Origin: Crambe crambe
Taxonomy: Eukaryota; Porifera; Demospongiae; Poecilosclerida; Crambeidae
Length of the DNA stretch: 64,000 bases
NCBI GenBank assembly: GCA_963924555.1
Contig: OZ004588.1
Location: forward strand, 3,720,001-3,784,000
Direction of reading: 5' to 3'
The notes beneath the pieces are model-generated. The model did no database searches, was not told where the DNA came from, and saw nothing but the letters and a program-made list of their open reading frames with translations. Both the position numbers and the translations under genes were made by a program. The stretch's first letter is position 1; every line of letters starts with the position of its first letter. Shown in pieces: positions 19,031 through 44,300 of the stretch.

Positions 19031-19258
19031 GTACGTACATGGGGACTATTTAGAGTTATTCATGTGCAGAAAGGTTTTACGTAATTTGGACCCTTCTATA
19101 TCAATGTTGTGGTTAATGAGCCTTTGATGTGTGAGATAATCCCCACTCGCTTATATACCTCAGCCTGTTTCAATTCCAGTGTCCTCCCTCACACCTCCCA
19201 ATCACTAGGCTGTGAATTGATTAGTCAATAATGACCCTTTGACCTTTGCCCTTTCTAG

Positions 19259-19885: not shown

Positions 19886-19897
19886 TGCGCATGCGCA
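19886..19897. promoter_or_regulatory. NRF1-like palindrome, second copy
   Basis: TGCGCATGCGCA again, followed at similar spacing by GGGCATTATTTAGCGTAGTAG as at 5596. It marks the second promoter/first-exon block of the array. Confidence 0.55.
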
Positions 19898-19916
19898 TTT
19901 TTTGCAACCGGTTGCA

Positions 19917-20058
19917 AAGTGGCGGGCATTATTTAGCGTAGTAGACTGCGGAGTTTTTCTGAGGAGTGACTGTCGTCAACCCAATTGAACGATCGCGTAG
20001 GGCAGTGCTGTGAATAAGAAAACTAGTCTTGAGTCTTTGTGTACCTGCCTTTGGATCG
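19917..20058 (+). ncRNA. Putative first exon of array transcript, copy 2
   Basis: Longer than the 5626-5721 copy by insertions, but ends at the same donor context (TTTGGATCG then GTAAGCA). Its downstream intron sequence (CAGTGATAGCAGATCCACCCAT) is also shared with copy 1. No shared reading frame. The transcription start is not defined. Confidence 0.4.
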
Positions 20059-20326
20059 GTAAGCAATGAAAACTCTTGCTTCAGTGATAGCAGATCCACC
20101 CATCATAGAGCCATAGATAATCTATGATGTAGGAGATTCACCTCCCCATCCCCTCTCAACACAATACACATAATTTGTTGCATTTTTGAGATCACTGAAG
20201 CACTGATGTTCGTATGGATTGCAGATAGAGCTGTTTTTGACGAAAATACCTCTCACCCCCTCCACTCTTCTTTTTTTCTTTTTCATTGTTCTAACTAATC
20301 ACTGTATGTTGTGTATGCAATTACAG

Positions 20327-20398
20327 AATGAGATGATGGAAGTCCTCAAGGAAGAGGAACAGTCGTTATCGTCCCTCTAAAATACCAAACTCTTATAG
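20327..20398 (+). ncRNA. Array exon AATGAGAT, copy 4
   Basis: 72 bp between ATTACAG and GTAACC. One inserted base relative to copy 1 switches the frame to an acidic peptide (NEMMEVLKEEEQSLSSL, then stop). This loss of frame beside intact splice sites is the main argument against a protein-coding family. Confidence 0.45.
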
Positions 20399-21017
20399 GT
20401 AACCATCAATCCTTTTCATATTTGTCTGTTTGATCTTACTCGGTTACTTTCCTTTCACATGTGATTTCCTTTCGATGTGGTTTTGAGCATTTCTATTGCA
20501 CTTCCCCTCCCCCCAAGCCTCTTTGTGATTGTATGTACTAGCATGTGTGTGGATTCATATTCTCTTGTAGTTGTTTGTGACTTTGTCAATCTTTACCAAT
20601 TATTCCATTATTCAGCATAATGAACTTAAGTAGTTGAAGAGCCACATGTAAATCTGTGTATCATAATTATAACTTCTGATTGGTCTAATTGGTACATCTT
20701 CTAATTGCCTCCCTCCCCTACATATTCCGTGTGTCCCTAGCATGGAAGTGCTGATAGATGTCACACCCACCACTATTCTGTACTTATGACTTTCTAATGT
20801 GGACCCAACTAATGTGTATAGAGCGGCAGTACAGGAACTTGACTTTGAATGTTGAGGTGTCTCTCCAGAGAGGTTGTAACATATAATTGTTTACTTTCTG
20901 TTTCGTAATGGCTCCCTCTCTATTGTCCTGTATCAAGCCAATATTTTTTTAAGCTGGAAATAACTTTATTTCAGGAGGGTGTGCTCTAATAGTGTGTGCA
21001 AGTTTCAACTAACCTTA

Positions 21018-21260
21018 AGGCGGCGGGTATGCATTTGCTCATGAATAATTCATGAGTTAATGAGGCGAGTAGTTGCACCGACTATGAGATGCTATGGTTT
21101 AAAACTACAGTTTCATACTGACTAGCACTTCCTACTCTACAACTGAGGGCAAACCAGACACTGGAGAACACTACCGTTGCAGTTGTAGTTGCAGTTATAG
21201 CAGTTGTAGTTGTAGTTGTAGCAGTTGTAGTTGCAGTTATAGCAGTTGTGGTCAGATAAA
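21018..21260. mobile_element. Partial copy of GGCGGCGGGTATGC element plus GTT-rich repeat
   Basis: After TTAA (21014-21017) the sequence matches 63332-63500 almost base for base for about 165 bp. It then passes into a (GTTGTAGTTGCAGTTATAGCA)-like repeat at about 21175-21250. The corresponding array position at 11191 has an undisturbed TTAATTAAACC, so this is an insertion at TTAA. The right end is not resolved. Confidence 0.55.
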
Positions 21261-21589
21261 AGGACTCAGACTCAGATATTAACCAGCTATGTACTAATTA
21301 CTATTAGACTATGGCATCCATAAAAATGCTTTGAAGTTTCAACCTTATTGAGGTCTCTTTTAACAGAGCCATCTGGGCAATACCAACCTGGGCTCCATAA
21401 GCACCATAGTAATGTTTGCAACTCATTTTAGTGTCATTGGGTTGCGTTCTTTAAAACCACCAGAAACCCATCAAGACTGCTGACAGAGTCTACATTATAC
21501 TGTGAGTGTTATGCCCTCGGTCACCATAATAAAGTGTTGTATAATGTACATACGTACATATGAAATGTTTCCCTCTATTTTCCATGTAG

Positions 21590-21776
21590 ATGCTTCAGCT
21601 TAAGGAATGTAAAGACAATGGAGCACACATTCTGTGGTGATCTGCAAACTCGTAGAACTGGGTGCTGTTTGTTTTGTTGACTCCACCTCCTCTTCCCTCC
21701 CTCTGATGCAATATCCACAGAGACTGCTTCCCCAATGAAGCTAGTCCTTATTAAAGAGCACTTGCACTCACTGAAG
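21590..21776 (+). ncRNA. Array exon ATGCTTCAGCT, copy 2
   Basis: Acceptor TCCATGTAG and donor GTATTC. It aligns with 18865-19030 with several indels. The ATG-led frame ends after 16 codons. Confidence 0.4.
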
Positions 21777-21970
21777 GTATTCACTATTTTAGTTATCTTG
21801 GTTTTGAATATTTGACTTTGATGTGGTTAATGGAATGTTAATTACCCTTTGATGGATGAGATGATCCCTACATAACACTCCCATGCACTATGACCTAAAC
21901 CTATGGGGTATGAATAGGTGTCCTGGTAATTAGTCCATGAATGACCTTTTGACCTTTCCAATGTGTATAG

Positions 21971-22110
21971 GAGAGTGAACAGAAAAGACGAATGTGAAGG
22001 TTGTCGATGTATTATCACAAGATGACACTTTAGAAAGTGATGGAGGTTCCACTTGTACCAGTCCGTACAGTGGTGACTGCAGACCACACCCACTTATGTC
22101 TCGTCTTGTG
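21971..22110 (+). ncRNA. Array terminal exon-like block, copy 2
   Basis: Starts GAGAGTGAACAG after AATGTGTATAG. It parallels 19259-19440, including CAGTGGTGACTG and CACACCCACTTAT. This is the last recognised block of the array. Confidence 0.35.
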
Positions 22111-23160
22111 TCTTTTTAAAGTGTATCATCTTTAATTTTATTATGTGTACATATTATTATTAATGGGTTGATAGTTCAGAGTTCAGTATCATTGTTGGTC
22201 ATGTGACCAGTTGTGTCATTCCTGATAACATCCTCCACTCGTGTATTTGGCTCTTCTTTCTCCATCACCTTCAAAATGTTCAAGATCTTGGGTCGGCCAG
22301 AGTAAACTAAACTCTTGAATGGTTGGTCTAAACAGGTCCAGTGCAATACATGATGAATGAGGTATATAGATTCATCAGATGTTGGGGCTTGCCATGGCTC
22401 TACAGTGTGATACATGCAAGTGGGGAGTCTTGAGACTACATAGAACTTGTATAGATGTGCAGTACACATGTATGTGCCTGAGGCCGAGCGAGGTATCTCA
22501 AAGATGGTGCAGTATTTAAGTCGTGGCCACTTACAGAAAATCCAGTTGCACCTCTACCGTCAAGGCACTCTTTTCCAAGTGATCGTGACCTCGTGTATCT
22601 GGAAGTAACAACTTTTTCGCATAGTTAGATAGGTCTATGTGTGATCTGTTTGTGTGTACGTATACAATGTAAGAGTTATAGCAGGAATTATAAGTTAACT
22701 AAATAGGAAAAAATATTCCAAATGGAGAACTTCCGGTGCAAAAGAAATTGTATGGGGCCCTTGACTTCCGGTTCCGCTGGCGTAAGGTAAAGTGGGATGA
22801 TTTGGGACACGGGATAACTTGGGACACTGAAGTTATATTTCAATCTTGCTTCGAGAGTTTCAAGATCTTATTTTGCACACATAAACATTTATGCTTTGTC
22901 TCTCTCTGAAGCCAGTCTAGAGTGCTTTGGTTACTCTGTTGGTAATAAGCAGCCCTAAACACTCTGCTGATTTTACAAGACCGCAAGAAAAACTTAATAA
23001 ACTAACTTCAAATTTACTTAACTGATTTATCAATATTCTATTCACTGAGATAATACTGCATAATGATCTCTGTGTTTTAAAGAAGTGATAAGTCAGCAAA
23101 ACATGCATAGCGCGCTGTTTAGATACGCATGCGCATAAAGGTTGTTGTTCTCCATTTTGT
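22111..23160. other. Non-coding stretch before the 23-kb element
   Basis: No gene is supported. Near 22791 the sequence TAAAGTGGGATGATTTGGGACAC resembles the end of a short inverted-repeat element, but no matching right arm was found nearby. A TACGCATGCGCATAAAGG motif at about 23124 resembles the NRF1-like sites and could belong to a promoter split by the next element. Confidence 0.4.
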
Positions 23161-23168
23161 GATTTGTG

Positions 23169-24185
23169 CATAGATAGTATATTACCGCCCCGGGATTGGA
23201 AACGGAACCAATTCCACGGGCAATCCGTGTTATGAAGTCAACGCGCGCGCGCTTAAATCTAATAATTATTACAGAACATACAGTGATAATGTGCAATACA
23301 TACAGTGCATGCTACTAGTGATGTGATGGACTCTTCTTCCTCTCCTTATTCATCAGTCAAGGAGGCTACTACACAATAATTATACTACACAATATAATAA
23401 TTACTTTCTGATTTGCATGCACAAGTAAGTGATCACAAAAATTGATGCAGAGTTGCTAATAATATAATATTATACCATCAAAATTGTCAATGAACTTCAA
23501 TGCCAAGATGCAGTCATCAGAGTTACCAACACAATTTTGCTGGAATCAATCCGGCACAGTTACTAGAGAGACACAGGAGCTGTAATGCCGGAACAATTTT
23601 TAGGGTCATGTTGCAATCTATAAATGATATTGACACTATTGATCATTTAATACTGGCATGAACTGTGGAGTGACCAGGATATCTGGAATGGAGTGCAGCA
23701 GTGGAGGTTACATGACCATTACTTTCTTGTACATAGCCGATGCTTCCTTCCTCCCATGAGTGCTCTAAGTAATTGGTTTATATTTTCACCATTAATGCAG
23801 TAACATGCATCTAATGCCACTCATTCTATAAAAGAAGGATGAATCTACTCACAAAACTAGATAATAAGCACAAACCTAAGTTATGAAGACTACCATTCCC
23901 CCGACGAATTTTCTTCTAGTTTTCTATATCGCTAAAGTGTGGAATTTAGCCATTATACTAGTAGGAATAATTGAAATTGTGGATGCAAATTATAAATACT
24001 AACCGCCGCTTGCAGTTTCCCTGTGAAAGAGCAGCCACACGCCTCCTAGCGGACCGCTGCAGCCCGTTGCTACCCACGTAACTAGGTAAGTTTCTTGGTC
24101 GCAAACCATAACACGGAGTGCCCGCGGAATTTTCAATTAGCCTATGCTACCGTTTCCAATCCCGGGGCGGTAATATACTATCTAT
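23169..24185. mobile_element. 1-kb non-autonomous DNA transposon, exact 8-bp duplication
   Basis: The ends CATAGATAGTATATTACCGC and its reverse complement extend as inverted repeats for more than 40 bp, including CCCCGGGATTGGAAACGG. They are flanked by GATTTGTG on both sides (23161-23168 and 24186-24193). An 8-bp duplication fits hAT or P-type insertion. There is no transposase frame. It separates a GC-rich promoter-like stretch upstream from an open frame starting about 24232. Confidence 0.85.
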
Positions 24186-24231
24186 GATTTGTGGCCGTGG
24201 GCGGATCCGTTTAGAGTTTGTTTGTCCCTAA

Positions 24232-24572
24232 TCCGAAGCAACCAGTCCAATATTAAAGAAAGAGAAAAAAAAACAAAAAAACAAACCTTTTTCGCGGATA
24301 AGCGTAAGCTTACGTATTAAAAGTTCTTCTGGTTTTGATCGATTTTCATCGCTTAAGGAGAATGCTGAGATCTCAACTGGTAGACCTGTGGAAGTCTCGG
24401 GTCCAGCACCTGAGACAGTATTACTGTTTCCATGGACACAAGCCAAAGCAGAGAAGCTCCCCGGCCATTTCCAGCCATGTCTGGTTCATTCCTCTGATAT
24501 TGACCTTATGGTGGTTGTTGATAGCTGTCATCTTTTTATACACTCTCAAGATGGAGCATTTATTGAGCACAG
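24232..24572 (+). CDS. Candidate exon of unknown gene
   Basis: One frame is open from the stop just before 24232 to a donor-like CACAG/GTGTGA at 24572. It encodes a Lys-rich start, then a stretch with SSSGFDRFSSLKENAEI and a hydrophobic segment DLMVVVDSCHLFI. The only in-frame ATG is at 24388, so an upstream exon or a short protein from 24388 are both possible. No domain is recognised. The 23169-24185 transposon interrupts the DNA just upstream. Chance openness in AT-rich DNA cannot be excluded. Confidence 0.3.
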
Positions 24573-25413
24573 GTGTGAATTACAAGCTAGTTTTAGCTAT
24601 AATCAGCTAGCTAACTGTAAAGTACCTAAAGTGGGATAATTTCAAGCACCAAAGCAAATTTTTTTCTGTTGCAGGTAGCTAGTTCACTTGGGTAGAATGA
24701 TTAGCATATTATACCTTGTTTTGGAGGAGCACTTGTTATTCTGTCACATTTGACATGATCAAAACTTCAGAATTTAATATTATTATTATTATAGCTACCA
24801 AGATAATTGTAAGTTCTTCAGTGCATGGGATTAAAAATTATTTGAGTGCTACATCAAAGGGAAGCCACCAGTTGTAATTCTAGTACATTGTGGCTACTTC
24901 AAAGGCCATGTCCAATTGAATTTTATGGTTTGTGATAGTACATCTCTATACAAGGACAGTTTCCTGGAATGTATTAGGCCTGCCTGTCTAGACACTTCTA
25001 TATCAGCCCTGGAAATTTATTGATGGTGCCTAAGTGTTGAGAAATATTGAAAAAAAATTTTTTTTAACAAGAGAAACATTAAAATTGAAGCTATAGGCCT
25101 ATCAAAAAACGCAATTTACACAGAAAACTTTCAGTCCAATGCAGAACAGTCTCAGCTACTACTATATTTAATAAAGAAGGTGATATCACCGGCAGCTTCT
25201 CAACATCAATATCGATGATACTGTCCATTTAGCCAGCTAGCTAGTAGTCTGGCGGCGCAGCCCCGAGCATGAATTACTAGCTAGCTAGTAACCAAAATCT
25301 TTACAGAGGTCATTGAGTTGCCTAGATACAGCTAGTCACATAGCTACCTAGTACTTTCTAGACATGCAGCTGTAGACACGTAGCTGTAGCTATGTAAACA
25401 TTTACCAGACGGC

Positions 25414-25502
25414 TGTAAAATAGTTATAGCAAGCCTTTACCTCGGGTAGTATGTGATAAATCACATACAGCCCTCGAAGGCATGCTATAACTATTATTTA
25501 CA
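25414..25502. repeat. Hairpin-forming inverted repeat
   Basis: TGTAAAATAGTTATAGCAAGCC pairs with GGCATGCTATAACTATTATTTACA with few mismatches. The centre is also palindromic (TATGTGATAAATCACATA). It is a small MITE-like palindrome. A similarly built one with ATAGTTATTAA arms lies at 38085-38212. Confidence 0.7.
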
Positions 25503-26966
25503 CAAGCCAAAAATTTTCCCTGAACAAAATTACATAGGGTCCTAATAGCAAGCTGTGTTGTGAATGTTATGATTGTGAAGAAAAAAAGTAACTAGGGATC
25601 AACAAAATTAATACTTGTGGAGAATGGGGATAAAAAATAGTTGACCAAAAATCAGCTACTGAATTCGAGTGATTGATAAGAAATAGTCTTGCCATATCTT
25701 GGGTAAAAATTGTACATTTTAAGTTTTGTGGAGAGATTGGCTTCCTTGGCAACAGGGTTGTCACCACCACTAATTACGTAGGTGGCTACTCTAATTCAGC
25801 AGTTTATACAAAGGAACTCAAGAGTCAATACCAATACCTCCATATCTGCCAACCCCTGGAAGTAAAAATCCCCTATTATGCCAGCATTGTGCTGGCATTA
25901 AGGTTCAACCCATTATTATGCCCAAAACTATGCCGGCATAATTTACATGTCCCCACTGATCTGTCAGTAATGGTATCACAATTTTTGTTGTGCCTGTCTC
26001 TTCATCTAACATACATTTGGTACACTACAGACTGAGAGCCTTACAATCCTTGCAAGCTCTCTCTCATAAGAGTTGTTGGTCTCTATTATTTGCATTTCTA
26101 TGCTCAGGCTATGAGTCTTTAGGTAATCAGTACAAGATCCTCTTGTGTAATAACAGCTAGCCAGATCACTTTATTATTCCAATCATGCTCAGTGCAGCTG
26201 TAATGTTTCATGGAGATGGCAGTTAGCCTGTATTTAATCTCCAGAAAAAGGGGTGTGGCAAGCCACATCACTAGGACACACCTGTCATGTTGTGAACCAC
26301 TAGTGTCCTTGTGTTTATAGTCCAGACATGTGGGTTTAGAAGCACTCCCTCCCCCTTGGAAATAACTTAGAAGCACACAATAATTAACTAGTCTTCTACA
26401 AATTAAGTTTCCAGTGTCATTAAGTCTCCTATTTTGATTCCACAAGTAACATCTCCATCAATATTGTGTACTCAGCAGATGCAGTTCTAACAGGAATGAA
26501 AAGACAGATATTAGCTAAGAGTATTCATGTTAGGAAACATTGCTATCGGCATCTCATTGGTAACCAATGCAGTTGTGATCCCTTATCTTCCTCATGCTGC
26601 TTTAGTAAGAAGTGCGTATCAAGAGAACTGAAATATGTTGCACATCAACCACTGCACCCAGTTACGTTGAATGGTAATAACACCATCAAAAGCAATGAAA
26701 GAGGTCTCAAACTGGTAAAGAGTCATACCAATTAGCATGACCCCCCCCCCCCCCCCCCCCCCATGAAAAAAGCCCTGCTAAACCCTTGACATTGTACACA
26801 AGTAGAGAAGTGTGCCATCCTGTTTATGATGATGACTTGATATTTGCCATGGTAACCTTAAAAGTGGGTGGAAGTGTCAGTTGTAGTTTTAATTGTACTT
26901 CTGTCACTAAAAATAATGTCTCTTACTAACTGGTAGAGAGAGTACACTACAGACTAACAGCTTGCA

Positions 26967-27003
<37 letters not shown>

Positions 27004-27164
27004 GAGTTTAAGTCCCTCTATGCTTTTTACACAGCCTTTGACATGTGTTGTTTTAACATGACTCACATGGTGATGTGAAGTTCTGTTGTGACCTTTAGCA
27101 GTGTATCTCTTAATTTGTACCTTGACCTCATAACATCATCCAGGATTTACACTAATCTCACTAG

Positions 27165-27269
27165 CCAGACTCCTTTTCCCCTCACTATACTTTGCACATG
27201 CACACATACTTGCATGCACATGTAAAACGAAGGGAGGAAGAAAGAAAAAAGAGGGGAAAAGGAGTCTGG
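27165..27269. repeat. Short inverted repeat CCAGACTCCTTTTCCCCTC
   Basis: A perfect 19-bp inverted repeat lies at both ends of a 105-bp segment with no coding capacity. Probably a very short MITE. Confidence 0.65.
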
Positions 27270-28034
27270 TGTAGGTTTTCTGGATCCCTGCAGGAATGTA
27301 GGCATAACCAATCAGATCCCTTGCTATAAATAAGTCACATGATCATTATAAATTATCACATGAAATTCTTCTCTGTAAATTTGGCGTGCTATTTCAATGT
27401 CAGAGGCTACGCCATAGTAAGTGCTAGCTAGCTACAGAGAAACTAGGTTATCATCAGCTACTCTCTGCTTGACTTCATCTTATAAGCATCAATTTTTGTT
27501 GTCATTCAATCGTTTGATTGTCAACAAACAACCGCCTAGTGAAATAAACTGATCTATTGCCTCCACACTGAACAAGTGGGCTGTGCACTCACTTGTCTCA
27601 CATAGCCAGTGCTCACTACACCAAAGAGATCTACCTCAGGGTTTTAGAAACGATTTTTCAAGATATGGGAAGCTGAACCTAGACCACTGCTGCAGCTATA
27701 CTCTAATGCATCCATAGCCTGCATTTCAGGATGGTTGTCCACAAGGAATGAGAAATAGGTAGTGGCTTACAAGGACCTAAGAAACCATGTCCTATTCAAT
27801 CCATGCAGTTGTGTAAACCATACCCCAAACCTTCCTGACAACCAACCTGCAATGGACAGTAGCTATAGCAGATTGCAGTGGTCTTGCAACATCAAAATAC
27901 TAAAACCAAAATTTACATAGCCTCCTTTCAAGTAGCACAACTCCAAAGCCACAGTTAGTCCTTCGATAAGAGGCTATGTAAATTTTGGGAAACAAAATCA
28001 CTGCAAATATTTTTTATGGATTTTGGGATTTTTT

Positions 28035-28712
28035 TGCCTCGGCACCGGAGTGCCGAAGATAACTATGATGGTACGTATTAATAGCGCGCGCAATGATGCG
28101 CGGTGATGCGTATCGAGCACGTGCATTATTAGCACTAGCTCTCTAGCTAGCATAGCTAGCTAAGCCAACACAAAAAGATAAACAGGCTCAAGCTCAGGCT
28201 CGCAGTCACTACGCAGTAATGCTACACCGTGAGTGAAGAGAGTGCTGATGCTTCTTGGCCGTCTTTGCCAACAAAACAGCCCATGAACAAAAACAACAGA
28301 CCCATGTTACTAAGACAAACAGACGGGCTCAGGCTCACAGTCACTACGCAGTAATGCTACACCGTGAAGAGAGTGATGCTTCTTGGCCGTCTTTGCCAAC
28401 AAATCAAGCCCATGCAGAGAAGACAGCAATGAACAAAAACAACAGAGATTGCAATGTACATGAACTAGGTGATCATTTGAAGTGCCAAAGACTTAGAGCC
28501 ATTATGAAGGAGAATCTAATGAAAGAATCCCAGACATACTTCAATCAAGCTATATGGATGAGAATCATTCAAAACGGCAGTTTGAAAGCATTGAACAGCA
28601 AGAATACTAGCTGTGTAAATACCAACCTTACTACAATAAGCCATGTTGCTCAGTGCACATTATTTAGAAAGTTTAATAATAATAAAGGTTGCACTGAAGT
28701 CATGCCGAGGCA
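28035..28712. repeat. Dispersed repeat bounded by TGCCTCGGCA, copy 1
   Basis: Begins TGCCTCGGCA and ends with its reverse complement TGCCGAGGCA. It shares order and sequence with 29230-30021, including GATGCGTATCGAGCACGTGCA, GATGCTTCTTGGC and GAATACTAGCTGTGTAAATAC. An internal duplication of about 90 bp (CAGTCACTACGCAGTAATGC) is unique to this copy. The longest frame inside, about 150 codons, has no ATG at its start and no recognised domain; the part ending NTSCVNTNLTTI is also kept in copy 2. Confidence 0.65.
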
Positions 28713-28784
28713 TTCCTAGTCTTTTTAAAAGATTAACTTGTTTAAACATGTAGCTAAAGGGTCAACCATCACCTTAAGCACATG

Positions 28785-28850
28785 CCCATGCAATTGATAC
28801 CAGATCTTTTTCCACCGCCCCATGAAAAAAGCAGGGACTGGGTACAAAGT
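28785..28850. repeat. Degenerate solo end of the 2086-2790 element family
   Basis: Contains CCACCGCCCCATGAAAAAAG and GACTGGGTAC, matching with changes the right terminal repeat at about 2727-2783. It shows that family is dispersed. Confidence 0.5.
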
Positions 28851-28932
28851 TCATTGCAAATTTAATGGAATCAACCACTATACATGGCCTAGCACAACAA
28901 TTAGAAATCTAATCATTACCACCCAGAGTACT

Positions 28933-30168
28933 TACCGTATGGATAAATATTTTCGAGGGATCATGGTTTCTCGGTCACTTTGAATTTTTAACACTCGAAA
29001 AAATCAATAGTATAGTAGCCTATTACTTTTAGCGCATGCGCATTAGTCATTACGGAGTACTTTGACCTCGATCTTTCCAGATGGCTCTCTACAAGTATTT
29101 CAGAACTTCACTTCGCTTTCAGAACAGCAGAACTTCACCATCTGAAGCTTCCTGTAGACGTGAAATTCCCTAACCATTGAAGGGTAACTAAAACTGGTCA
29201 TCCTTCCAATAACCACATGTACAATTTTTTGCCTCGGCACTAAAGTGCCGGCTGGAAGCGACTATGGGCGATGGTACGTTTCACGTGCACATGCGATGAT
29301 GCACGATGCATGATGCGTATCGAGCACGTGCATTAATTTAGCTCTAGCTAGTACAGTATAGCTAGCTAGCTAGGCATACAGTACTAAGGACAAACAGCTA
29401 GGCCGGGGCTCACAGTCACTACATGGTAATTCTACACTGTGAAGAAAGTGCTGATGCTTCTTGGCTGTCTTTGCCAACAAATCAAGCCCATTATCACATG
29501 CAGAGAACTGACTAAAAGACAGCAGTGAACAAAAACAACAGAGATTGCAGTGTACACGAACTAGTGATCTTTTGAAGTGCCAAAGAGAGAGCCATGGTGA
29601 AGGAGAATCTTAGAACTAAGACTTTGAGGCTTCCAAACAATGTGAGAATCCAGTACACATACTTCAATCAAGCTATAACCATTCAAAACGGCAGTTCGAA
29701 AACGTTGAACAGCAAGAATACTAGCTGTGTAAATACTAATCTTACTACAATAAACCATGTTGCTCAGTGTGCATTATTTGGAACTCTCCACTGCCAGAAT
29801 TAAAAAGAAGCTGAGAGAAATATTTTGGCAACATTTGACCTCGCAAACCCCTGCGCTTTTCATCATGCAGCAAGTGTTCAGCAATTCCAAATATAATCAT
29901 CCTTATAGGACTCTGGCTTTAAGTGTATCTTTATCGTCTCTTATCACTGTCGTATTCACTGTAAAGCATTTAAAATAAAATTTAGAAAGTTAAAGGTTGC
30001 ACTTAAGTACGTGCCGAGGCATTCCTAGTCTTTTTAAAGACTAACTTGTTACACTACGCGCGAGCGATATATTGCAACGTATGCGGAGCGAAACGAAATT
30101 TTTATAATCTAGCTTGGTACTGATAATCACGAAATTTTAATTTCTCGAAAATATCTACCCATACGGTA
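28933..30168. mobile_element. Inverted-repeat element with TACCGTATGG ends, hosting a nested repeat
   Basis: The left end TACCGTATGGATAAATATTT (28933) and the right end, its near reverse complement ATATCTACCCATACGGTA ending 30168, enclose about 1.2 kb. The second TGCCTCGGCA repeat (29230-30021) lies within it, so the insertions are nested. No transposase is present. The right end lies only 64 bp before the predicted start of the 2A-Death gene. Confidence 0.65.
29230..30021. repeat. Dispersed repeat bounded by TGCCTCGGCA, copy 2
   Basis: Direct copy of 28035-28712, about 0.5 kb further on, without the internal duplication and with other indels. It ends TGCCGAGGCATTCCTAGTCT, as copy 1 does. 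Confidence 0.65.
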
Positions 30169-30231
30169 TCTAGCACACCAGGATGGTTGAAGGTTATCTC
30201 CCCACAGTGTCTTATCAGGTTGGCAGAGTTC

Positions 30232-30848
30232 ATGTGTGCACAACCAACTTGCAAAGTACTGTGCATTTACGTCAACATTTTTTTGCATACAATAATCGTT
30301 ATTTCTGTTGTGTGTGTAGGGGAAATCCTGAGATACGAGCTTTATTTGAACTTCTTGCTGACTATATTGTGGTGGAAGCTTGCAGTGACTGAATCTGAAG
30401 GGACGACCAAGACTCGCTTTCGTAATGGCCCACACTGCTCATGTACCATGTGTACTAATCATCGAAATGGCTGCACTATCACAAGGGGAAATGTTTCCAT
30501 GGTGATTTTACCTCTTAGAGACAACTGGAAGTGTTATCGAAGAAGAAGAGTTCTTCATACTGTTCACTATTCTGATCATAAAGTGGTGACTTCCTTGTTA
30601 TTGATATTGGCTGGTGATGTTGAAACTAACCCTGGTCCTGGTGAGTATTAGAATTATTCTGTTATAACTTTCTTAAGCATGTGTAATAGAGTTCCATTTT
30701 GCACTGTTACAGTATTTTCTTTAAGAATATTAGCTGTTTGTTTATTGTTGTTTTGTGTGTGTGTGTGTGTGTGATGTATGGTCTTCAATTAGCTATTTTG
30801 AGGTTGAAGCCCCTACACACCAGAACAAAAAAAAACAATGGTTCATGA

Positions 30849-30896
<48 letters not shown>

Positions 30897-33800
30897 GGTA
30901 TTGATGCTGATGATACTACCATTTTAGGTATGTGAATTACCTCAGTACTCAGTGAGGGCGAGACTTGTATTAAATCTTGTCCTTAGATGAGCATCCATTT
31001 CCACACCCCTGGCTAGCTGCTACTTATAATCCTAAGTGAAGGGGAAAAATTTTAAAAAGGCCATGTAGAGTTAGTCTGTACTTTTACCTGTAGCAGTTTC
31101 TGTGAGCAACATCAAAACTATGCTGCCTTCAAAAATAATCCCTACATCACTGCCTCCCACCAAGCTGCTTCAATTTATGTCAGTGTAAAAGTGTTCTGCT
31201 TGGTTTTGGCAGAGATGTAGAGATTATTATTGACAGCATGGATGTTTATTCACAGAAACTGCTACATGTAAAAGTACAGACTAACCTTACATGGCCTTTT
31301 TAATTTTTTCCCCCTTCACTTGTTTGTTTACTTTTCATATGACCTTTACTTACTGTATCAACTCATGTTTAGTGATAATTTCACCGTGCGCACGTGATCG
31401 TGACAGACGCGTGCAAATGGCTTACATTGTATCGTTTATAATGAAAAGTTTGGAGGAAAATTGGATAATGATGGTAAAAGCACATTGTGTGGTTATAACT
31501 GCAACAAGTTACATTGTCATATGTGAAAGGATCATGAAGTTGCAGCCATCAAAGAAGATGAATCTGGCTAACGAATCATAAAGATTTAGATGGCAGCTGT
31601 ACTGGTGCCAATTGTTGATGCTGTTCTAGAGGGGTTTGAGCGGACATATCTGCATTGCAGTTTAGTTGAGCTTGTAGAAGACATACAGAGAGTCTAGTTT
31701 GTATTGTTCTAATGAGAGAAGCCACGCCCATTCCGGACTAACCCTACATAGAGAGTACTACCGCACTCTCTGATAATGCAAATAGATCTGGAAGACTTTC
31801 ATTACAATTTCTATCAGAGCATGCCCAGTAGGTACATGAGTCTTGGGAATGAATATGTTACGACTCTATTAGCAGCCCTGGTGCCCCTTCCAGCCCTGTT
31901 CTGCTAGTAGTTGCCTGCCACAGCAATGGACTACTGAGCCATAGGATGTAACATAGTGAGAAGAGGCACGCTCTCGTTCAGGTGAACTTGCCATAGCTCG
32001 TTTACTTTGAGGAAATTCACTGTTGGCCTACTTCTGTTACGGCTTTATTAGCAGCCTTGGTTTGGTGGTGCCCCTTCCAGTCAGGGAGAGACAAAGTTGG
32101 CTTGAGTGATCTATAGTGCAGCTGTTACTATGCAAGCATTCTTAATAAAGGGCATGGTTTCGAATTTTCTGTCTAGCATACAAATTATACAAAAATTTAG
32201 ACCATTTAAAAAATTCCCGCTATACATTTCGTTGGGTTTCAAACAGGAAAACCTCAGGAATTTTTTTGAATCTTATTAAATTTACATTCTTACTGAACTC
32301 AATGTACTACATATAGATGGTGAGTCATGGACCAACTGGAATTAGATTATACCCAAGTCATGTGATCAGCATTAAATAGTTTAGATCACTCTGATCTAGC
32401 TCCATGTGTTTTAATGATGCTAGCTATAATGCTCATGCAGGTGCATTAAAACACTTAGAGCTAGATAAGAGTGAACTGAATACCGGTATTACTTAATTAA
32501 GAAAATTATTAGTGTTAAAATATATTTTCGCTATCTTAGTCATGGTTGGATTTAGGGTATAGACCATTGGAAAGCTCTTCTAAAAAGCTGCTTTTTGGGT
32601 AAAAAAGGTTTTGCAGGTATGTAAGTATGAAGGCAGTATCAAGCCTAGGAGTTCAACAAACATTTGAAAAATTTCATGCTGGCTTATGAGCAAGATGTCT
32701 CTTAAATGTTGAATATCCCCTGGGCTAGCTGCTGCCCATCAAGTAGAACTACAAAACCTCTTACTCAGTTTCAATTTGAGCATATTCAGTAGGTACGAAA
32801 TAATATATAGTGAGTTCATAGCCTTCTCATGCCCCACCCCCTCCCCCAATGCAGTTCAGGATGATATTGATGATGTAATTGATGAGCTGAAGAATGTTCT
32901 AGAACCTTATTATGAAATCGGTAGGAGACTCCATCTGTCAGGTGACAAGCTAAAACAAATTCGTGGACAAAAATTGAGTCCAGCAGCAGCTATGGATGAA
33001 GTGATTACGGAGTGGATAAAAAAGAATTATGATGTCAATAGATTTGGTCGTCCAACTTGGAAGGCTTTGGTTGATGCTGTTGAACATCCTGCTGGAGGAA
33101 ACAACAGAGCTGAAGCTGAAGAGATTGCAAGGAGACATAGAACAAGTGAGTCCAGCTGTATTTCACTGTTATGAGCTATTTGTCTCAGCTTTTAGTGTAT
33201 ATGTAATTTTTTACCCCCAAGAACAACTGCATACTAAATAGGAAAAATTGTTTGGAGGAAAAGCTGAATAAGTAATGTGAACAGTCACACCTACGCATAA
33301 AATCAGTGGGCGGAGTTTTAAACTAGAAGCTGCTTCCTGCCGCTATAAAGTGCCAACTAAGCTCAGAGAAGAGCAACAAGATACCGAAGGTAGCGAAAGC
33401 ATAAGCTTATAAGATTACCACATGACTTTTTCTTAGAACTAGAAGATGAGTGTCTGTAAGAGCACATTATTTTTCACTTGGTATGTATATACAGTTCTTC
33501 ACTAAAAGAATTGTGTACACATCCTTTCAAGGGACTGTAATAAAATGGCTATAGGACTTAAAAATTTTAAATCAACAATTGAGTGGATGGATGTGTTCAA
33601 AGGATGTGTCCCAAAACAGAAGGATTTCACTTTATAGAGTAATTTGGGGAGAACACATGCTTATCACAGGGGAGGGTTCAAAACATTGCATTTAGTCACA
33701 GTGCAGAAATATCTACACAAGAAGAAAGTATAGTTTTTAAAAGCCATGGCTCTGAGTACAGAGGCATCATTCTACCATGCATACATACCTAGGTCTTGGT

Positions 33801-35293
33801 GTGTAACGTATTACTGAAGGCCATGACCCTGTGTTATAGTATTGCAAAAACTTGTTGTATCTTCATATGACTTGGTATGTAATTTTTCAACTGCATGCAT
33901 GACATTTTTGACTTTAATGTTCAGAACATGCTATATTGTTTAGATGTATAGTATTTTATTGTAGCCTTCTGAGAACCTGTAGAGTAAGGGTAGAAGAGAA
34001 AGAAGAGTTTTAGTTTATATACAGTCTTATGACCTTTGACCCACCATCCCTACTTAGAGACTCTCGATATATATTTCAATGAGTCATGACCTGAGAGTCA
34101 GCTTGCTTGCTCACTGAAAATTATAAACATACGGTAACTAAACAGCTATTATGCTATTCATGCATTTTTTGACTGAAAATTATTTTTCCATAGAACACTG
34201 TGATACTAATTCAGAACAACCTCCAAAAGAACCTGCTGCTGGTGAGTATGAAGTAGCTAATCATAGCTAGAAAATTTTCAAGGCTTAAATTTGCAGCTTG
34301 GCTATCCAGTTAGCTTTTTTTTTTTCTTTTTTTTTTTGAGCTATACAAAAGTATGTTTGCTTGTTACACAAATAGTTTGATCCCTGTATGTAATTTTTCC
34401 ACTGCATTTTTTGTTCAGAACGTGCTATATCTGACCAGACTGGTGTAAAGGATGAAGCTACTAAGGATGGAGCTAGTGAGGATGGAGCTAGTGAGGACGG
34501 AGTTAGTGAGGATGCAGCTAGTGATGAAGCTAGTGAGGATGAAGCTACTAAGGATGGAGTTAGTAATTGGATGAATGAAGGTATGGTAACTACATGAGTT
34601 ACCAGACATGACAATTAGCATTAGAATCAGTGCATGGTGGAACCTCTCAAAGCAATTACGATTGGAGCATGTGCATATGTTTGTTTCACCTTTGACTCCA
34701 CAAATAAAACATGCTCACAACACTTGGCCATTTGCCTATAGGCTTATCTAAGGCGCTTGGCTTTCTAAGTACTTGTGGTAAGCATTATACAGCCTCTTGT
34801 GTATGCAGCTGCACCACCACTTCATCCTGACAGCAATACCTTAGGCTAAGAAGTTGAAGTACAAATGACTTTCACCAACTGCTTTGCTCACCAATTGAAT
34901 ATAACCCTAGCTCATGTGCTACTATTATACGACACATATGTACTATTGTACGTACGCCTGGGACATTTTGGAGTGTAGACCTAGATATATGAGTGCCAAA
35001 TTTTTTTCTAAATAAGTAGGTTAAGTAGGGATAGCCTAAAATCTAGCTGGGCTGTATAATGTACTGTGAAAACAATCCCTACATTTACATCCACTCCCTA
35101 CTAGCTATGGCAGTTGTAAAAGTAGGGATTGTTTTCATACGAGGTTGCAGTACATTATACGGCCCAGCTAGATATTAGGTTATCACTACTTAACCTACTT
35201 ATCTAGAAGAAAATTTTTGTACTCACTTATTTTTATCCTTTTTCTTTTGTAGGTACATACACAGTCACTGATGATTTAATGTTTAGCTATTAA
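30232..35293 (+). CDS. 2A-like peptide fused to a Death domain, multi-exon
   Basis: Model join(30232..30640, 30898..30927, 32855..33145, 34194..34241, 34419..34580, 35253..35293), 326 residues; all five introns are phase 1. Exon 1 encodes a hydrophobic start, a basic stretch (YRRRR), then LLLILAGDVETNPGP, with GDVETNPGP at about 128-136. This is the canonical 2A consensus at which ribosomes skip the Gly-Pro bond. A 10-residue acidic exon follows. Next is a Death domain (about 147-243), with signs such as IGRRLHLSGDKLKQI and PTWKALVDAVEHPAGG. Two acidic, repeat-bearing exons (SEDGASEDG type) come after. The last exon is taken as 35253-35293 because of its long pyrimidine tract (TTTTTCTTTTGTAG). 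A competing last exon, 34809-34849, is also in phase and also ends after 13 codons. The start is uncertain: ATGs at 30448 and 30499 are in frame, and an acceptor-like TGTGTGTAG at 30319 could begin the exon. 2A motifs are known at the front of non-LTR retrotransposon proteins and of sea-urchin NLR proteins. The first exon might derive from such an element. Confidence 0.65.
30853..30896. repeat. (CT)n tract serving as polypyrimidine tract
   Basis: About 22 CT units lead directly into the TAG acceptor of the 30-bp microexon 30898-30927. Length changes in this microsatellite could alter recognition of the microexon. Confidence 0.85.
31035..31320. mobile_element. MITE with AGTGAAGGGG ends
   Basis: Arms of about 68 bp (31035-31103 and 31250-31320) are inverted copies sharing GGCCATGTA(A)G, TTAGTCTGTACTTTTAC and GTAGCAGTTTCTGTGA. 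It lies in the intron between the microexon and the Death-domain exon. No coding capacity. Confidence 0.75.
34990..35225. mobile_element. MITE with TGAGT ends in last intron of the 2A-Death gene
   Basis: The arms 34990-35085 and about 35127-35225 are inverted copies, sharing AAATAAGTAGGTTAAGTAG and TAGCTGGGC, around a 40-bp loop. It ends 27 bp before the acceptor of the chosen last exon. Its insertion may have separated the two alternative last exons. Confidence 0.75.
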
Positions 35294-35879
35294 GTTTTGT
35301 CTAATATAAAACTTTACAGCAACAGCAATGTAAATGACATGTGCATGGCATGGTGAAGTGAGCTGACTACACTACAGCCAAGTACTGGCTATAATACTAC
35401 TATAGGATGAGCATATGTACTGCAATCCAGCAAGGAGTGACTGGAACACCATCAGATAAGCGATTAAACTGAAGACCTAGCTAAACTTAAGAGCTACTGG
35501 ACTGAAAGCTGCTTAGCTCCAGCTATTAGGCTGTAGAGTACTTACACGTGGCCCTGCCCCCTACCGCACGTGCACTTCAAAATGGCATAGAAAGATTAGC
35601 TAGTGTTCCGAGTGCTATCAATATCACTGAATTGTGAAGTAGAGCCTTAGTCAAAACTAAAAGATTAGTGCTCTAATAGATGGCCAAAACAGCCAGTAAG
35701 TTGGTACATCGATCTTATACATTATTATTATAAAGAAACAGAACAAAAGTCAATTTTAGAATTTGCTTATGAATTCTACATTCTTCTTGTAGATGTAGTA
35801 TTCTTCCATACAATTTACTATAGCTACTTGGTGATAACAATAAGAAGTTTGTGCCAAGAAATTCTAATGTATATCCATA

Positions 35880-36245
35880 ATCAGAGAGAGCGGTAGCTCT
35901 CTCTTTGTACGTAGGGATGACGCAGACTCCGCATATACACTAATACAATAGTGTAGGTTCCAGTTCCCCCACTTGGACTTATAACAAAAGCTAATTATCG
36001 AGCCTACTACAATATGCAGAACAAGTTTCAGGATCAGGGAGCTTACCGTTTCAGAAATATAGCAAGCAGGTAAATCGCCGAATTATTATTTTTCTTCTTA
36101 GACAACCACATCTCTTGAACCACTCAAGCTACAGCTATGATTTATGGATAAATCCACTCAAAATTCTACCAGCTACGATCTTTTGTACTTGTCGATCCTC
36201 GGAATAGTCAAAGAACAAGGAGACACTATGGAGCACAATACTTAA
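35880..36245. repeat. Dispersed repeat, copy 1 (of 45478-45832)
   Basis: Direct copy of 45478-45832, sharing GTTCCCCCACTT, AGAGCTTACCGTTTCAGAAA-like sequence, CAAGCAGGTAAATCGC and GAACCACTCAAGCTACAGCT. Not coding in either copy. The repeat type is unknown. Confidence 0.75.
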
Positions 36246-37080
36246 TTAGTGGATGCCATTTTATCGATAATGCGCATGCACGTGCATATAAATGGGCATA
36301 CATCAAAATAAAGATGAAAACTTCCATAGTAGTATCATAATAATGATTATATTGAAAAAAATGATGTACTCAATTTAGTTAGTACTGTACCCATAGCAAC
36401 CTAGCAAAAACAATATACTATAGGTGACAGGATTTGAGAAAAGGTACAATTTCACGCATGATTGAATTATGAGATATGTGTGTCTCTAGCCTTATTTTTT
36501 TTAAAAATCCATTTTTTTTTCTTTGCCTCCACAGTATCTTCGGTCCTTTGTCTAACTTCCTGCCTAATTTCAGGAAGTGGGAAGGCTTTGAAGTGGGCAA
36601 GCGCTTGAATTGAAGTGAGCTACCTCACCTGGAACTTATTTCACATCCTACGTGCCCAAATTTCAATGTTCAATTACAGAGGGCATTTAAGCATAGTGTG
36701 CAGGAATAAGGGAAATTCCCCATAGAATAATATTGATGATTTCAACTTAGATAGGAAGAGGATGTGGTAGGGGCCATTCAACTTTGGAGGTGCTGGATCA
36801 ATATTATTAGTCTCCTTCAACCCCAGGACTGTTGACAATAAAGTCTTCATTAAAATACAGCCAGTGTCTAGATTCCGACCCAGGCTAGCACAGCTTCCAC
36901 AGGAATCAACTAGCTAATAGAGATCAAACATAGAAATAGGACAATAAAACTTACAAGTATTTTAAACTATCAAACACTACAACTTTTCAAGCATTTATCT
37001 ACCCAAAACTTTACCTGATCATTATTCCCACGTTAAGCACTCAAAGATTACACAGTAAGGCCACACCATGCCACCAATTA

Positions 37081-38212: not shown

Positions 38213-38390
38213 ATATAACGTGGTACTAATAACTCCATTTTTACTTACCTTTTTCAAATCTTATCATTTTTTAGTACATAGTACATAAAGATTTGCAGCA
38301 TGCCTTAATTTACCGTGTTGTCAAGCACTTGTTATTTTGACCCCCACATATCCATTAACCATAGCTCAAACTCGTTTTTATGTTCTAATA

Positions 38391-41300
38391 ATGACAGATC
38401 ACTACACTCCATCTGGAGCATACAACATAGAAGAAGACGAGATATGTTATCTCCCCCAAGAAGAAGTGAAAAAATTAAGCCACCCATCTTCTGAATTGAT
38501 AAGCCAAGGTGCATTTAAATTTCCTCCTAAACAAAGCTATTTAGCACGTATAAGGGAAAGAACAGAAGATATAAAATGGGAATTCAGCACATTGCTTGAT
38601 GATTTTTGTGAAACTTTATCAAAAACAACTAATGATGAGAATTTTTCCCGTCGGTGTCGTATGATCTTAGATATACTTTCAATCAATCCTAAGACTAGGG
38701 ATGAAATAAACAATGTGGAGAAGCTCACAAAAAAGATTGATGAACATCAGTCTTTCATAAATTTTGGCATTCTTGTAAAGAGACTCATTCCACGGCTTGG
38801 ATCCGAAAATGACAAAACAAATGCAAAAAATTACATCGAGATCTTTAAAAAATATGCAAAGTGCAGAGTAATTGATTGCAGCCAGATGTGTCAGTCAGTT
38901 CTTACTAATCATTTCAGCACTGTTTTTATTATCAACAAAAATCAAGATCAATACAGGATTAGTGATCTGTTTAGTTTCAGGCTACATCTGAGCAAATATA
39001 TAGGAATTGATGACACTAAGATATTACTAGTTGGAGTTGAAGGAGGAAGTGTTATAGTCCATGTTCAGATTCCTGATTCTTTCTTGAAAATGTTACTGTG
39101 TCAACCTCTCTATCTGAAGAAAATAGAAGCTTTTAAAGATACTTCTGTAAGATCTTACTCTTTTAAAGACCATGAAGTGATACTAAAACATTGGAACACA
39201 CTCACAAATGTCTCGTTACCTCCAATAGAATCATCTCCAGCACATGAGAAACAAGGTAAGATTATAAAATCTGTTCATCATCAGGGCGAAGAGTGTATGG
39301 CTCTTGTTTATCCAAATCAGTATTCTGAGGAATCCGAGATCGATGTTGAGTATATTAAGTATCTGGAAGCTTTGATTCGTGATCACAAAGAAGTACCATC
39401 TATTAAAGGGTTGTATTATCCACCAGAAGAGGAAGGATTGCAAAAGTATCCTGTTGTAATCACTGAGAAGTTAAAGTTTCTTGAAGAAATTACCTTTCCC
39501 ACTAATTATGATGAATCAGATATCGATCTACTTCAGATATCTCTCCTTTTGAATATTGCAAGTGGTGCAAAGAGATTTGAAAAGCTTAACCATAAGGTAA
39601 AGGTGTCCACTGACCACATATTAATTCAAGAAGATGATGCTGAATACAAAGCAAAATTCATCCCTGTTTATGGTGACTCGTTCACTGATGAAATACCCAG
39701 CGATCAATATAGCATTTCAGAATCACTACCACATGATGACTTGCTGTGGATGAAGGAAGTCATACTTCATATTTTGTCTCATGGTGGTAATACTTCCCAT
39801 GTTGAAATTCCTGGCCAACATATTCTGAAGAACGTGATTGAACAAAAATGGCTTTCAAAGGACACACAGTTCAGGCCTCATACTTATTCAGATTTAGCTG
39901 ATGAACTTCAGCATTTACTAGGTAAGTAGCCTTTTCATATTTATGTTATAATCAATGGGATTTTTACCAGTGGTGATTGGCACTTAACTATATAGTAGTA
40001 CAATTATACTGTAGCAATTGTGTAAAAAATAACTTCGACCACCAAAGTGTATTAAATCCATCCATCCAAACTTAATAATATTATTATTCCTCTATTATAT
40101 TATTGTAGAAACAGAAAAGACTTGGATTGGCTTAATAAAGATTTCTACAGGTGGTGATCTTGTTAAAGATGAAGTTCAAATTCATGTCATTCTGATAGGC
40201 CACACTGGTGTTGGAAAGACAAGTCTCCGAAAGCATCTGAAAAACGAGCCTATAGATGACAACGAACGACCCACAATGATTATGGAACCTGAATTTCTCT
40301 ATCGTGAATCATTGACAAATGTTGCAGGAGGTGCCTTCAAGCCATTACTGGATCTACCCAGAGACTGTCAAAGTAAAGTCTTTCTCACTATGTGGGACAC
40401 TGGAGGTCAACCGATATTCCAAGATCTACTGCCTTGCTTTGCTCGATTAAAATGTTTATATGGAATAGTTTTCCGTTTGAGCGATTTAGAAAAATTTGAC
40501 GAGAAGCCAGAAATCCGACCCTGCAAGTCTTTCCTTGAACCAACTGTATCTCCTTTCACTAATAGAGATATAATGTACCGTAATCTGTCATTTGTCCAAG
40601 CTTTTTCATACAACACACAAAGAAAGCAAGAAAACTTACCTCCACAGTTGAGGTCAAAAGATTCCCAGAAAGCTTCTACTGCAGCTGTTGTCATTGGCAC
40701 ATACAAAGATAAAGCAACTGCTTCAGATGAAATTCTCCAAGACATTGATCACAACATCGGTCAGTTTGCCAATGAAAACAAGAGTAGCGTATTACTTTAT
40801 CCTGTACAGCAACACAGAGAGTCTTATATACACAAAGTTGATAATACAAGATCAGGAAGGGAAGTTGATGATTCAGGAATAGAATCACTTAGAAACACTA
40901 TATCAACTTGTGCCAATGAGTCTTCAGATATTGAAATTCCTCGCTCATGGCAACTATTCAGACTAGCCTTACAAAAAAAGTGCTACACTGATTGTATCAA
41001 TGTTGGTATCATCCCCTTAGATGAAGCTATTTCAATTGGCAAAGATTGCAAAGTTGAGGAACCTAAAGCTGCATTAATGTACTTTCATGAGCTTGGTGTG
41101 ATCATGTGGTATCATCTATCTGAAAAAAAGAACATGAAAAACTTTGTAATAATCGATCCGAAAGCTTTGCTTAAAGTGTTTGCAACTTTATTTTGTTATG
41201 ATCCTAAACTTCTTAAACCAGAATGGAGCAGTTTAGTTGAGAAGGGAATCATGCCTGTGAGCTTTTATGCATCCCTTCTCAAAAAGAAACCATCTAAAAT

Positions 41301-44300
41301 TGATGACTGCTGGTTTATGGAATTTCTAGAAGAGCATCATCTGAGCGTCAAAATAAATCTTCCTGGACACGAGATTTGTTATTTCGTTCCTTCGATATTA
41401 CCAGTACCCAAGAAGGCCATTTTAGAGAATTTAGACAGTGATGTATCCCCCTTGTACATTGTTCCAGAGTCTGAATACATTGCTACCGGTGTGTTTACAA
41501 GACTGTTAACTGCATTAGCTGGAGTTATTATTGGCAATACGAGATGGAGAATACCACTTGATAATAGTGAACCTTGTATTCAATATTGCCGAAATCAGTT
41601 TAAATTTATAGTGAATGAATGTATCTGTGTGATACTTACTGAATTTTCCCAATTTATTCGAGTTGACTGTGTTTCATATAATGATGCCATCTTGAGTGAA
41701 GATATCTACTACCATATTTTATCCACATTAAATGTGCAGCTTCAGCGAATAGTACCACGTTGGCTTGAAGAAAGAGAATTTGATTTAACATTAGCTTGCA
41801 ACAACAGCAGTATATATACAAGTTGCTCAGCATCAAATATACAGCATTTTTATGTCATAAAGAAGTTAATGTTGGAATCTAACACATGTGAATGTAGCAA
41901 TCAACAAGTAAGTGAACTCAAAAAGTCTGAATTAGCATGGTTCCAAAAACAAAAGGCTTCAGAGAAAGCTAGAGGTAAGTCACTAATGACCCATTCCAAG
42001 TTTCATTGTTTTTATTGTTTTGTTAAACTTACATAGGTGAAGCTGCTGATATTTTTGATAAAGCGATGGACAAAGGTTCTCTTGATTTAAGGATTGCATC
42101 AGTGATCTTTTTAGGAGTCTCTGATTCTGAAGTTACGAGTGCTAAACACATTGCACTTCAGGAACCTGTGCCTATGACTCCAAAGGCCATATCATCAGTT
42201 GAGCATGAGATTTATTATCGACCTGCTGATCATGATCGTGCTGTGTTTAAAAAGATGGAAACCAATCATCACAATGAAATCATAGCATTCTCAATGCTTG
42301 GAGAGAGTCAGTCAGAAGTAGAACCTACATATTCTTCACAAGACTCACAAGACCAACAAGACCCACAGCAAGACTCACAAGTCCAACAAGACCCACAACA
42401 AGACTCACAAGACCAACAAGAATCACAAGACCCACAAGAATTGCAAGACCCTCAAGACCCACAACAAGACTCACCAGCACCGAAACCAGAGTCATCAGGA
42501 AGAGGAGGAGAAGGTGAGGAGAGAGGGAGGAGGAGGTGGTGGGGGAGGGTTAAAAGGACTGTAAAGAGGTGGTTCAGGGGTGGTGGAGTAGAAGGAGGAG
42601 AAGGAGAAGGAGCATCATTACCTATAATACCACCACCACCACCACCAAAAGTGGATGAAAATCAAAGAACTTCAGTAAAGAGTGTGGATACACACAAATC
42701 TGAAGAACAAGAAAAGCAAACTACTTCTGCAGAGAGTGTTGATACACACACATTTGAAGAACATAATCAATTTGTTGAAGCTGATAGCATAATGAATACA
42801 AAAGATTTCATGTCCCAATACCAAACTAAAGGGAAAATGGAAGTACTTCATGTTATTAATTGTGGATCTAACTTTTTCAAATTCAGTGAACTTTTAAAAA
42901 TCTTCATCAGGAATGTGACTTTCTATGCTTTTGTTACTGATTTATCTAAGGAGTTGCATCAGACTGAATGGGATGATTTGTTGCAAACTGCAACACCAAG
43001 CTCTAAATTGTTTGTTATTGGAACATATTTCAAAGAGAATGTTAACATTCAAGAAAAAGTTGCTCTCCTATGTGAAAATTTAGGCAATTCAAGTAGTAAA
43101 AACCAGATTTTTCCCCTCAATTATAAAACACCAGAAAGACAGGATTATGACACTGGTCGCAGAGTTATTGACCATGCAATGTCAGAAACCGATTCCAAGA
43201 AATTCCCATTTGCATGGCATGTATTTGGTTTCAAATTAAAGGAATACATTGCCTCTTCAGATTTGCTTATTTTAAGTGTTGAAGGACACTGTAAGAAAAT
43301 TGGCCAACTTTTAAATATGGACAGGCCAACAGTCGAAGTAGCACTTCAATATCTGTCAGAACACAATATGTTACTTTACTTCAAAGATGCTCTACCGGAT
43401 ATCGTTTTTTCAGGAATTACAATTTTTTCAAAGATATTTTCCTCTCTCTATGATAAAATTAAACATTTAGATGGCTGGAATTCATCAATTGTCACCAGAG
43501 TAGACTTGCTCAATGAGATTAGAGTCTATACTAATGAATTGAAATATATATCTGACAAGGACTTAATAGTTTTATTCACCAAGTTGATGATAATGGCTCC
43601 TTTTGATGGTGATACCAGATACATCATGCCTTCCTTGCTTCAACCTTTGAATAAAATGGACAGAAAGATATTTTGTGAAAATTCTATTGATTTGAATCTT
43701 ATTCCTATGATTATAAAGTGTCCTTCAGGTAATGAGTTCATTTCAATGCTGATATCATGTCTATTAAATCGATCATGGATTGTATCAAGAGATCAATCTG
43801 GTAATCCCAACTGCTTGTATAAGAACTGTGCAATGTTAAGAGCTGAAGAATTTCGATGCCTTGTGACTGTTGCATTTGAGTCACCATATGTTGAAGTATA
43901 TGTGAAGTCAGATGAACAGAAAAAGCCAACTAATCATCACCAGATTGCTTCAATTATTCTGCAATGTTTGGAGAAGATAAGCATCATCAATGGCCATAAT
44001 TTCAATTTCAATGTCGTATTTGACTGCAGATGTGGGAAGATAGATGAAAAACACACATGTTCTTACCACAGTGATACATCCATGAAATGTGAAAAAAGTA
44101 ACAGCATCTTTCCAGGATCTAGCCATATGAAATGGTTAGGTAAGGATGTGTGCTATAACATGTGACCGGCTAATGACTTTTAACATTTTGCATGAAATTC
44201 TCAAATCCAGTCACATAATTTATAATGCAGAACCTAATATAAAATAGTGTATGAAATTCTTTTCAATTAATGTACAGGTGATGGGAAAGTACAAGAACCC

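Follow-up and report, generated by a model that had tools for sequence, protein, structure and literature searches.

StopGo (2A) recoding is described as rare among cellular genes, as stated in PMC12846837; in the literature drawn on here, the sea-urchin NLR family is the sole cellular example mentioned. PMC12846837 also defines the core of the element as (D/G/C/N)(V/I)ExNPGP and gives, for the L-rich upstream motifs 2 and 6, an ending in (A/S/C)G ahead of the D (PMC12846837). According to PMC4981915, the usual architecture of sea-urchin NLRs is DEATH-NACHT-LRR and ~35% of the Strongylocentrotus purpuratus NLRs (85/241) carry a 2A; by a stricter count, a 26-aa N-terminal 2A is present in 14 of 87 NCBI entries, 12 of the 14 being predicted signal sequences. 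One of these NLR 2A leaders worked in reporters both as a recoding element and as a signal sequence. The leader SpNLR2A6 was qualitatively ~80% active in vitro, and in reporters expressed in HeLa and plant cells its skipped product was cytoplasmic while the skipping-dead fusion took the secretory route (PMC4981915). In that work, 2A activity fell when the hydrophobic tract close to the motif was mutated (PMC4981915), so the activity of the 2A described below cannot be assumed.

The stretch of DNA that we analysed, hereafter the window, is 64,000 nucleotides long. It encodes the nine residues GDVETNPGP at 30613-30639 on the forward strand, which match the 2A/StopGo core (D/G/C/N)(V/I)ExNPGP. 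As had been claimed in an earlier note on this DNA, the match to the 2A consensus is exact. It is the sole D(V/I)ExNPGP site of the window; the degenerate DVExNPGP pattern gave one match in the 64 kb and none in 100 dinucleotide-preserving shuffles, and the number of D(V/I)ExNPGP sites expected from base composition on both strands is 3.7e-5. A chance origin of GDVETNPGP was ruled out on the strength of these shuffles and this expectation. A six-frame scan located NPGP at two places, the second being at 58026 on the reverse strand and lacking the D-V/I-E part. The bond predicted to be skipped lies between Gly (30634-30636) and Pro (30637-30639). Directly before DVETNPGP stands the hexapeptide LLILAG, which, when compared by eye with the motifs as given in PMC12846837, fits the L-rich upstream class (motifs 2/6).

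The motif closes the first exon of a proposed six-exon gene model, whose features are as follows.

30499-30640, forward strand: proposed coding exon 1; it begins with ATG 30499 and has 47 codons, the last being the NPGP proline, followed by one extra base; codon usage p 0.044
30583-30615, forward strand: hydrophobic run VVTSLLLILAG, directly before DVETNPGP; Kyte-Doolittle mean 2.55 over 11 residues
30641-30646, forward strand: GTGAGT splice donor (phase 1), starting one base past the Pro codon (CTG/GTGAGT)
30898-30927, forward strand: microexon of 10 residues (30 nt), phase 1-1, with a (TC)n tract and AG ahead of it; codon usage p 0.006
32855-33145, forward strand: predicted Death-domain exon of 291 nt, phase 1-1; PF00531 at E 0.0029, below the cut-off, and a four-stretch profile
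34194-34241, forward strand: proposed exon 4, phase 1-1; codon usage p 0.001; weak acceptor, top 22.8%
34419-34580, forward strand: proposed exon 5, an acidic repeat with a 15-nt period, phase 1-1; codon usage p printed as 0.000
35253-35293, forward strand: proposed last coding exon, stop TAA at 35291-35293; acceptor top 0.14%; codon usage p 0.35

Splice sites were scored with generic matrices. The donor after 30640 is among the 7 best of 3793 GT sites, and a donor this strong within the next 12 nt is found at 0.13% of positions when the threshold is set at the observed score. The microexon acceptor (before 30898) ranks in the top 0.07% of 4227 AG sites and that of the Death exon (before 32855) in the top 2.2%; apart from exon 4, whose acceptor is the weak one, all acceptors of the model lie in the top 2.2% or better, and its five donors are all within the top 2%. 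All joins were computed to be phase 1 and to leave an open frame, and each of the four inner exons has a length divisible by three, the microexon and the Death exon both being symmetric. The arrangement first proposed, with the 2A at an exon end followed in frame by a phase-1 donor, a microexon and a Death exon, is borne out at the sequence level by these joins. The frame agreement at the Death join is weak evidence because 3 of the 13 AG sites at 32780-32930, the used one included, leave the frame open; omission of the microexon also preserves the reading frame. Exons 4-6, which were absent from the earlier note, were selected by eye to maintain the frame up to a stop, and since they were picked for frame, their agreement is not independent evidence. 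Two introns of the model contain MITE-like inverted repeats (31034-31321 and 34998-35216), whose arms (72 and 69 nt) are 92 and 91% complementary.

When spliced, the model encodes 237 aa; a working 2A would split these into a leader of 46 aa and a product of 191 aa whose first residues are PGIDADD. In this product, the Death domain would be accompanied by a tail of 83 aa with 23 D/E and 6 K/R. The motif, its frame, the splice signals and the predicted Death domain can be read directly from the DNA; we infer that the exons are joined in the real mRNA and that ATG 30499 is the start.

Codon usage was then considered. Four large window ORFs (2829-5006, 38289-39929, 40123-42036 and 42060-44165) provided the training set for the scoring, and stop-free stretches of about 9000-24000 on both strands served as the null. 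None of 1146 null stretches scored as high as the Death exon, and the p for exon 5 was obtained with 2000 null stretches; exon 4 and the microexon were likewise coding-like. The leader was borderline, one reverse frame scoring higher but with 2 stops, and the last exon was not coding-like.

The frame that runs through the leader is open back to 30127 and comprises 174 codons, an unlikely length by composition (9e-6 per start). Other in-frame ATGs are located at 30448 and 30232, so with several candidates the true start is uncertain; ATG 30499 itself has no purine at −3. Such a frame could also belong to a longer gene in which the 2A is internal: further 5' exons would contribute a longer upstream protein, from which skipping detaches the downstream one, with no signal-sequence role for the leader. 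The open frame with its two upstream ATGs would be consistent with this, and upstream exons could be accepted by the AG before 30519 (top 15.5%) or by the one before 30320. We nevertheless regard an internal 2A as unlikely: codon usage in the open frame at 30127-30498 is noncoding-like (p 0.32 and 0.35), and a low-sensitivity scan of the three forward frames of 20500-30490 produced no convincing Pfam domain, with DUF1218 appearing below threshold at E 0.019.

The earlier note had spoken of a hydrophobic leader. This description suits VVTSLLLILAG, that is, the last ~11 residues before DVETNPGP, to which the hydrophobicity is confined; it does not suit the long preceding part, which is largely basic and polar. 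A blastn search at E 0.01 found no second copy of the leader exon in the window, and the region 30499-30660 had no blastn match to phages. Searches in viral_contigs and genome_contigs found 0 confirmed relatives of the leader and Death exons, a result that is little informative because these collections hold viruses and prokaryotes only. Upstream of the leader, two short stretches, of 61 and 25 bp, are repeated near 28.7-29.0 kb (blastn, E 0.01). Also upstream, 28179-28669 and 29389-29783 form a duplicated block with four shared direct-repeat families.

Odon et al. (2013) reportedly described 2A-like sequences in non-LTR retrotransposons. That such sequences are established in these elements, those of S. 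purpuratus included, is stated in PMC4981915, and the leader could be what remains of the N-terminal part of such an element after insertion upstream of a Death gene, either unused or later captured as a 5' exon. The length of the open frame through the leader would agree with a relic, and so would the codon usage upstream of the leader, which differs from that of the window's genes. However, although the core motif is shared with these elements, no endonuclease or reverse transcriptase was recognised beside it here. No Pfam family at all was recorded at E 0.1 for the six frames of 29000-36999 (stops as X), in a search whose long queries missed the Death exon too; when the 22 open frames of at least 60 aa in the same region were each scanned alone, again neither domain was found, though shorter decayed pieces may escape such a scan, and the other matches of these frames were sub-threshold and unrelated. 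Moreover, the unspliced 2A frame stops two codons past the glycine that follows NPGP, a donor among the seven best sits at the motif, and by blastn (E 0.01) the leader exon is present only once in the window. We give a retroelement relic a low probability. In its captured form it is compatible with the host-gene explanation, skipping then being a by-product or exapted. The possibility raised earlier, that the 2A exon belongs to a retroelement transcript, has in this way been checked in part, at the level of the domains encoded in 29000-36999.

Next, we considered the identity of the exon at 32855-33145, which had been proposed to encode a Death domain. The Pfam support is weak: PF00531 (Death) matched the 237-aa protein at E 0.02 and, as with the exon alone, this is below the curated cut-off. 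An open frame on the opposite strand reached E 0.005 to an unrelated Pfam family, which indicates that E-values of this size arise by chance here. Other Death-like stretches of the window are located at 5110-5379, 44289-44525 and 50451-50723, and their alignment with the Death exon gave 26, 18 and 21% identity, respectively. In a search restricted to the window with permissive settings, the Death exon matched 5110-5379 with 27% identity at E 5e-4 and 50451-50723 at E 13, and 44289-44525 was matched by 5110-5379 at E 0.003. We built a profile on all four stretches, the Death exon being one of them. Searched against the PDB sequences, this profile returned 19 distinct matches at E up to 1, the best at E 0.0011, corresponding to 11 FADD, 4 RIPK1, 2 ankyrin and 2 PIDD/LRDD entries; all 19 belong to proteins known to contain Death domains. 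The single Death exon, searched against the same sequences with phmmer, gave 3 weak matches, none of them a Death domain.

A single-sequence fold model of the Death exon (pLDDT 57.5) had no Death domain among its 30 Foldseek matches; it was judged too poor and was replaced. The four-sequence model has six helices, with pLDDT 70.9 and pTM 0.60, and its four best fold matches, each a Death domain or a chain containing one, are FADD twice, ankyrin-1 and ankyrin-B (TM to query 0.64, 0.69, 0.49 and 0.48). The best of these, a FADD Death domain, has a Foldseek probability of 1.00 and a TM of 0.64, but an E of 0.23; the E-values of the fold matches are weak in general, with none of 43 at 0.001, and 6 of the 43 are Death-domain chains. 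The six-helix bundle and the sequence profile are both those of the Death superfamily. Taken mainly on the four-stretch profile, with the fold in agreement, the prediction that the exon encodes a Death domain is supported.

Further Death-like sequence lies elsewhere in the window. On the forward strand, 38289-44525 contains three long ORFs. Their matches are Roc at E 1.8e-9, COR-A at E 1.1e-6 (below the cut-off) and, weakly, a TRADD-N-like domain at E 0.029, and a Death-like stretch is present too; judged by these features, the region is apparently a Roc-COR-Death gene. No relatives of its Roc-COR ORF were confirmed in viral_contigs. The 2A-Death transcript might run past exon 5 into this gene (38.4-44.5 kb), in which case a large receptor-like protein would be released in place of a small adaptor. 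An in-frame phase-1 AG stands directly before 38398, the ORFs beyond it offer Roc, the sub-threshold COR-A and then a Death-like stretch at 44298-44507, and the modelled last exon lacks a coding signal. Yet the AG before 38398 is weak (top 12.1%, vs top 0.14% for the last-exon acceptor) and the 38.4-kb ORF comes with an ATG of its own (38393), and we see only a slim chance that the transcript extends this far.

Other features of the window were recorded as well. On the forward strand, 2829-5382 holds a Roc-like ORF (PF08477 at E 0.0034, below the cut-off) followed by a Death-like stretch at 5116-5379, and 50406-50726 a Death-like ORF (PF00531 at E 0.0018, below the cut-off). An open frame of 732 codons at 6651-8849, also on the forward strand, contains a hAT dimerisation domain (E 1.4e-6) and is a hAT-like transposase. 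The reverse strand carries DDE_1 transposase pieces at 57412-58167 and 51980-52342; a Psq helix-turn-helix (E 4.3e-11) accompanies the first, and we take the pieces to be pogo/Tigger-like. Adjoining the DDE_1 ORF, 57253-57420 is a perfect 84-bp tandem duplication (100% match), either a recent event or an assembly artefact. ARAGORN, run with the bacterial code, reported no tRNA genes.

Weighing these results, we consider it rather probable that the locus is a spliced host gene in which an L-rich 2A leader exon is joined in frame to a small Death protein with an acidic tail, ribosome skipping freeing the 191-aa product. The gene itself is probably an invertebrate immune or cell-death gene. The alternatives discussed above overlap one another and, in part, the host-gene explanation, and the likelihoods given to them need not add up to one.

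According to the host-gene explanation, the leader, while in the exit tunnel, would cause the ribosome to fail to join Gly46 to Pro47, to release the 46-aa leader and to continue. With an active 2A, this would set free in the cytosol a Death-domain protein of 191 aa that begins Pro-Gly. Where the bond does form, the hydrophobic run before the motif may route the fusion into the secretory pathway, by analogy with the reporters of the sea-urchin NLR leader; the hydrophobic run is shorter and weaker here and is preceded by a basic stretch, so that targeting by this leader is only possible. Skipping by the 2A, targeting of the leader to membranes and a role of the product as a Death adaptor are what we infer. 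A Pro-Gly start favours GID4-type recognition. An N-terminal proline may moreover destabilise a protein, as noted in PMC12846837.

A broader idea, which we put forward tentatively and hold to be rather doubtful, is that the first exon is a self-contained phase-1 module, its StopGo and targeting leader stopping right at the exon border, that could be placed ahead of cell-death or immune domains. Skipping would then set the cytosolic and secreted pools of a free Death adaptor, and perhaps its half-life through the Pro-Gly start, and the sea-urchin mechanism would extend beyond NLRs, possibly to another animal lineage. If true, the locus would be a second cellular setting of StopGo, again with a Death-domain protein, and would point to a recurrent role of 2A leaders in innate immune or cell-death signalling. 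With a gene model this small, ordinary reporters would suffice to follow skipping, targeting and what becomes of the Pro-starting product. Among the literature matches listed, no title or abstract opening described a sponge 2A-Death gene; absence from print is not claimed.

Finally, we compared the locus with the known systems. Among adaptors, the best profile and fold matches of the Death exon in the PDB are FADD Death domains; FADD-type adaptors differ in their Death-effector domain, a match to which is absent from the 237-aa model (E 1), the predicted protein having the acidic repeat tail instead. With the L-rich StopGo class (motifs 2 and 6 as given in PMC12846837) the locus shares the L-rich residues ending in AG before DVExNPGP. 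That survey deals with virus ORFs, whereas here the partner is a predicted Death domain in an apparently intron-containing gene. The likeness to the sea-urchin leaders is closer. The SpNLR2A leaders of Strongylocentrotus purpuratus are likewise leucine-rich 2A sequences; there they open proteins whose first domain is DEATH, and a downstream DEATH domain is what the profile and the fold indicate here, with the Pfam match sub-threshold. SpNLR2A6, whose sequence we translated from a primer printed in PMC4981915, has the same nine core residues GDVETNPGP; the two leaders agree at 11 of their final 26 positions, the core accounting for 9. It is 26 aa long, in contrast to the 47 aa from the nearest ATG here, which include a basic stretch, and its best 11-residue hydropathy is 3.19, vs 2.55 here. 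Sea-urchin NLRs continue downstream with NACHT and LRR, whereas the 237-aa model has a Death match only (E 1), with no NACHT or LRR in the model at that threshold or in the six frames of 29000-36999 (E 0.1). The earlier suggestion that a 2A-Death protein would be a new arrangement is thus narrowed: 2A leaders before DEATH are known in sea-urchin NLRs (PMC4981915). If confirmed, the parts that would be new with respect to these NLRs are a Death protein free of NACHT and LRR, the coincidence of the 2A end with an exon border and, possibly, the lineage.
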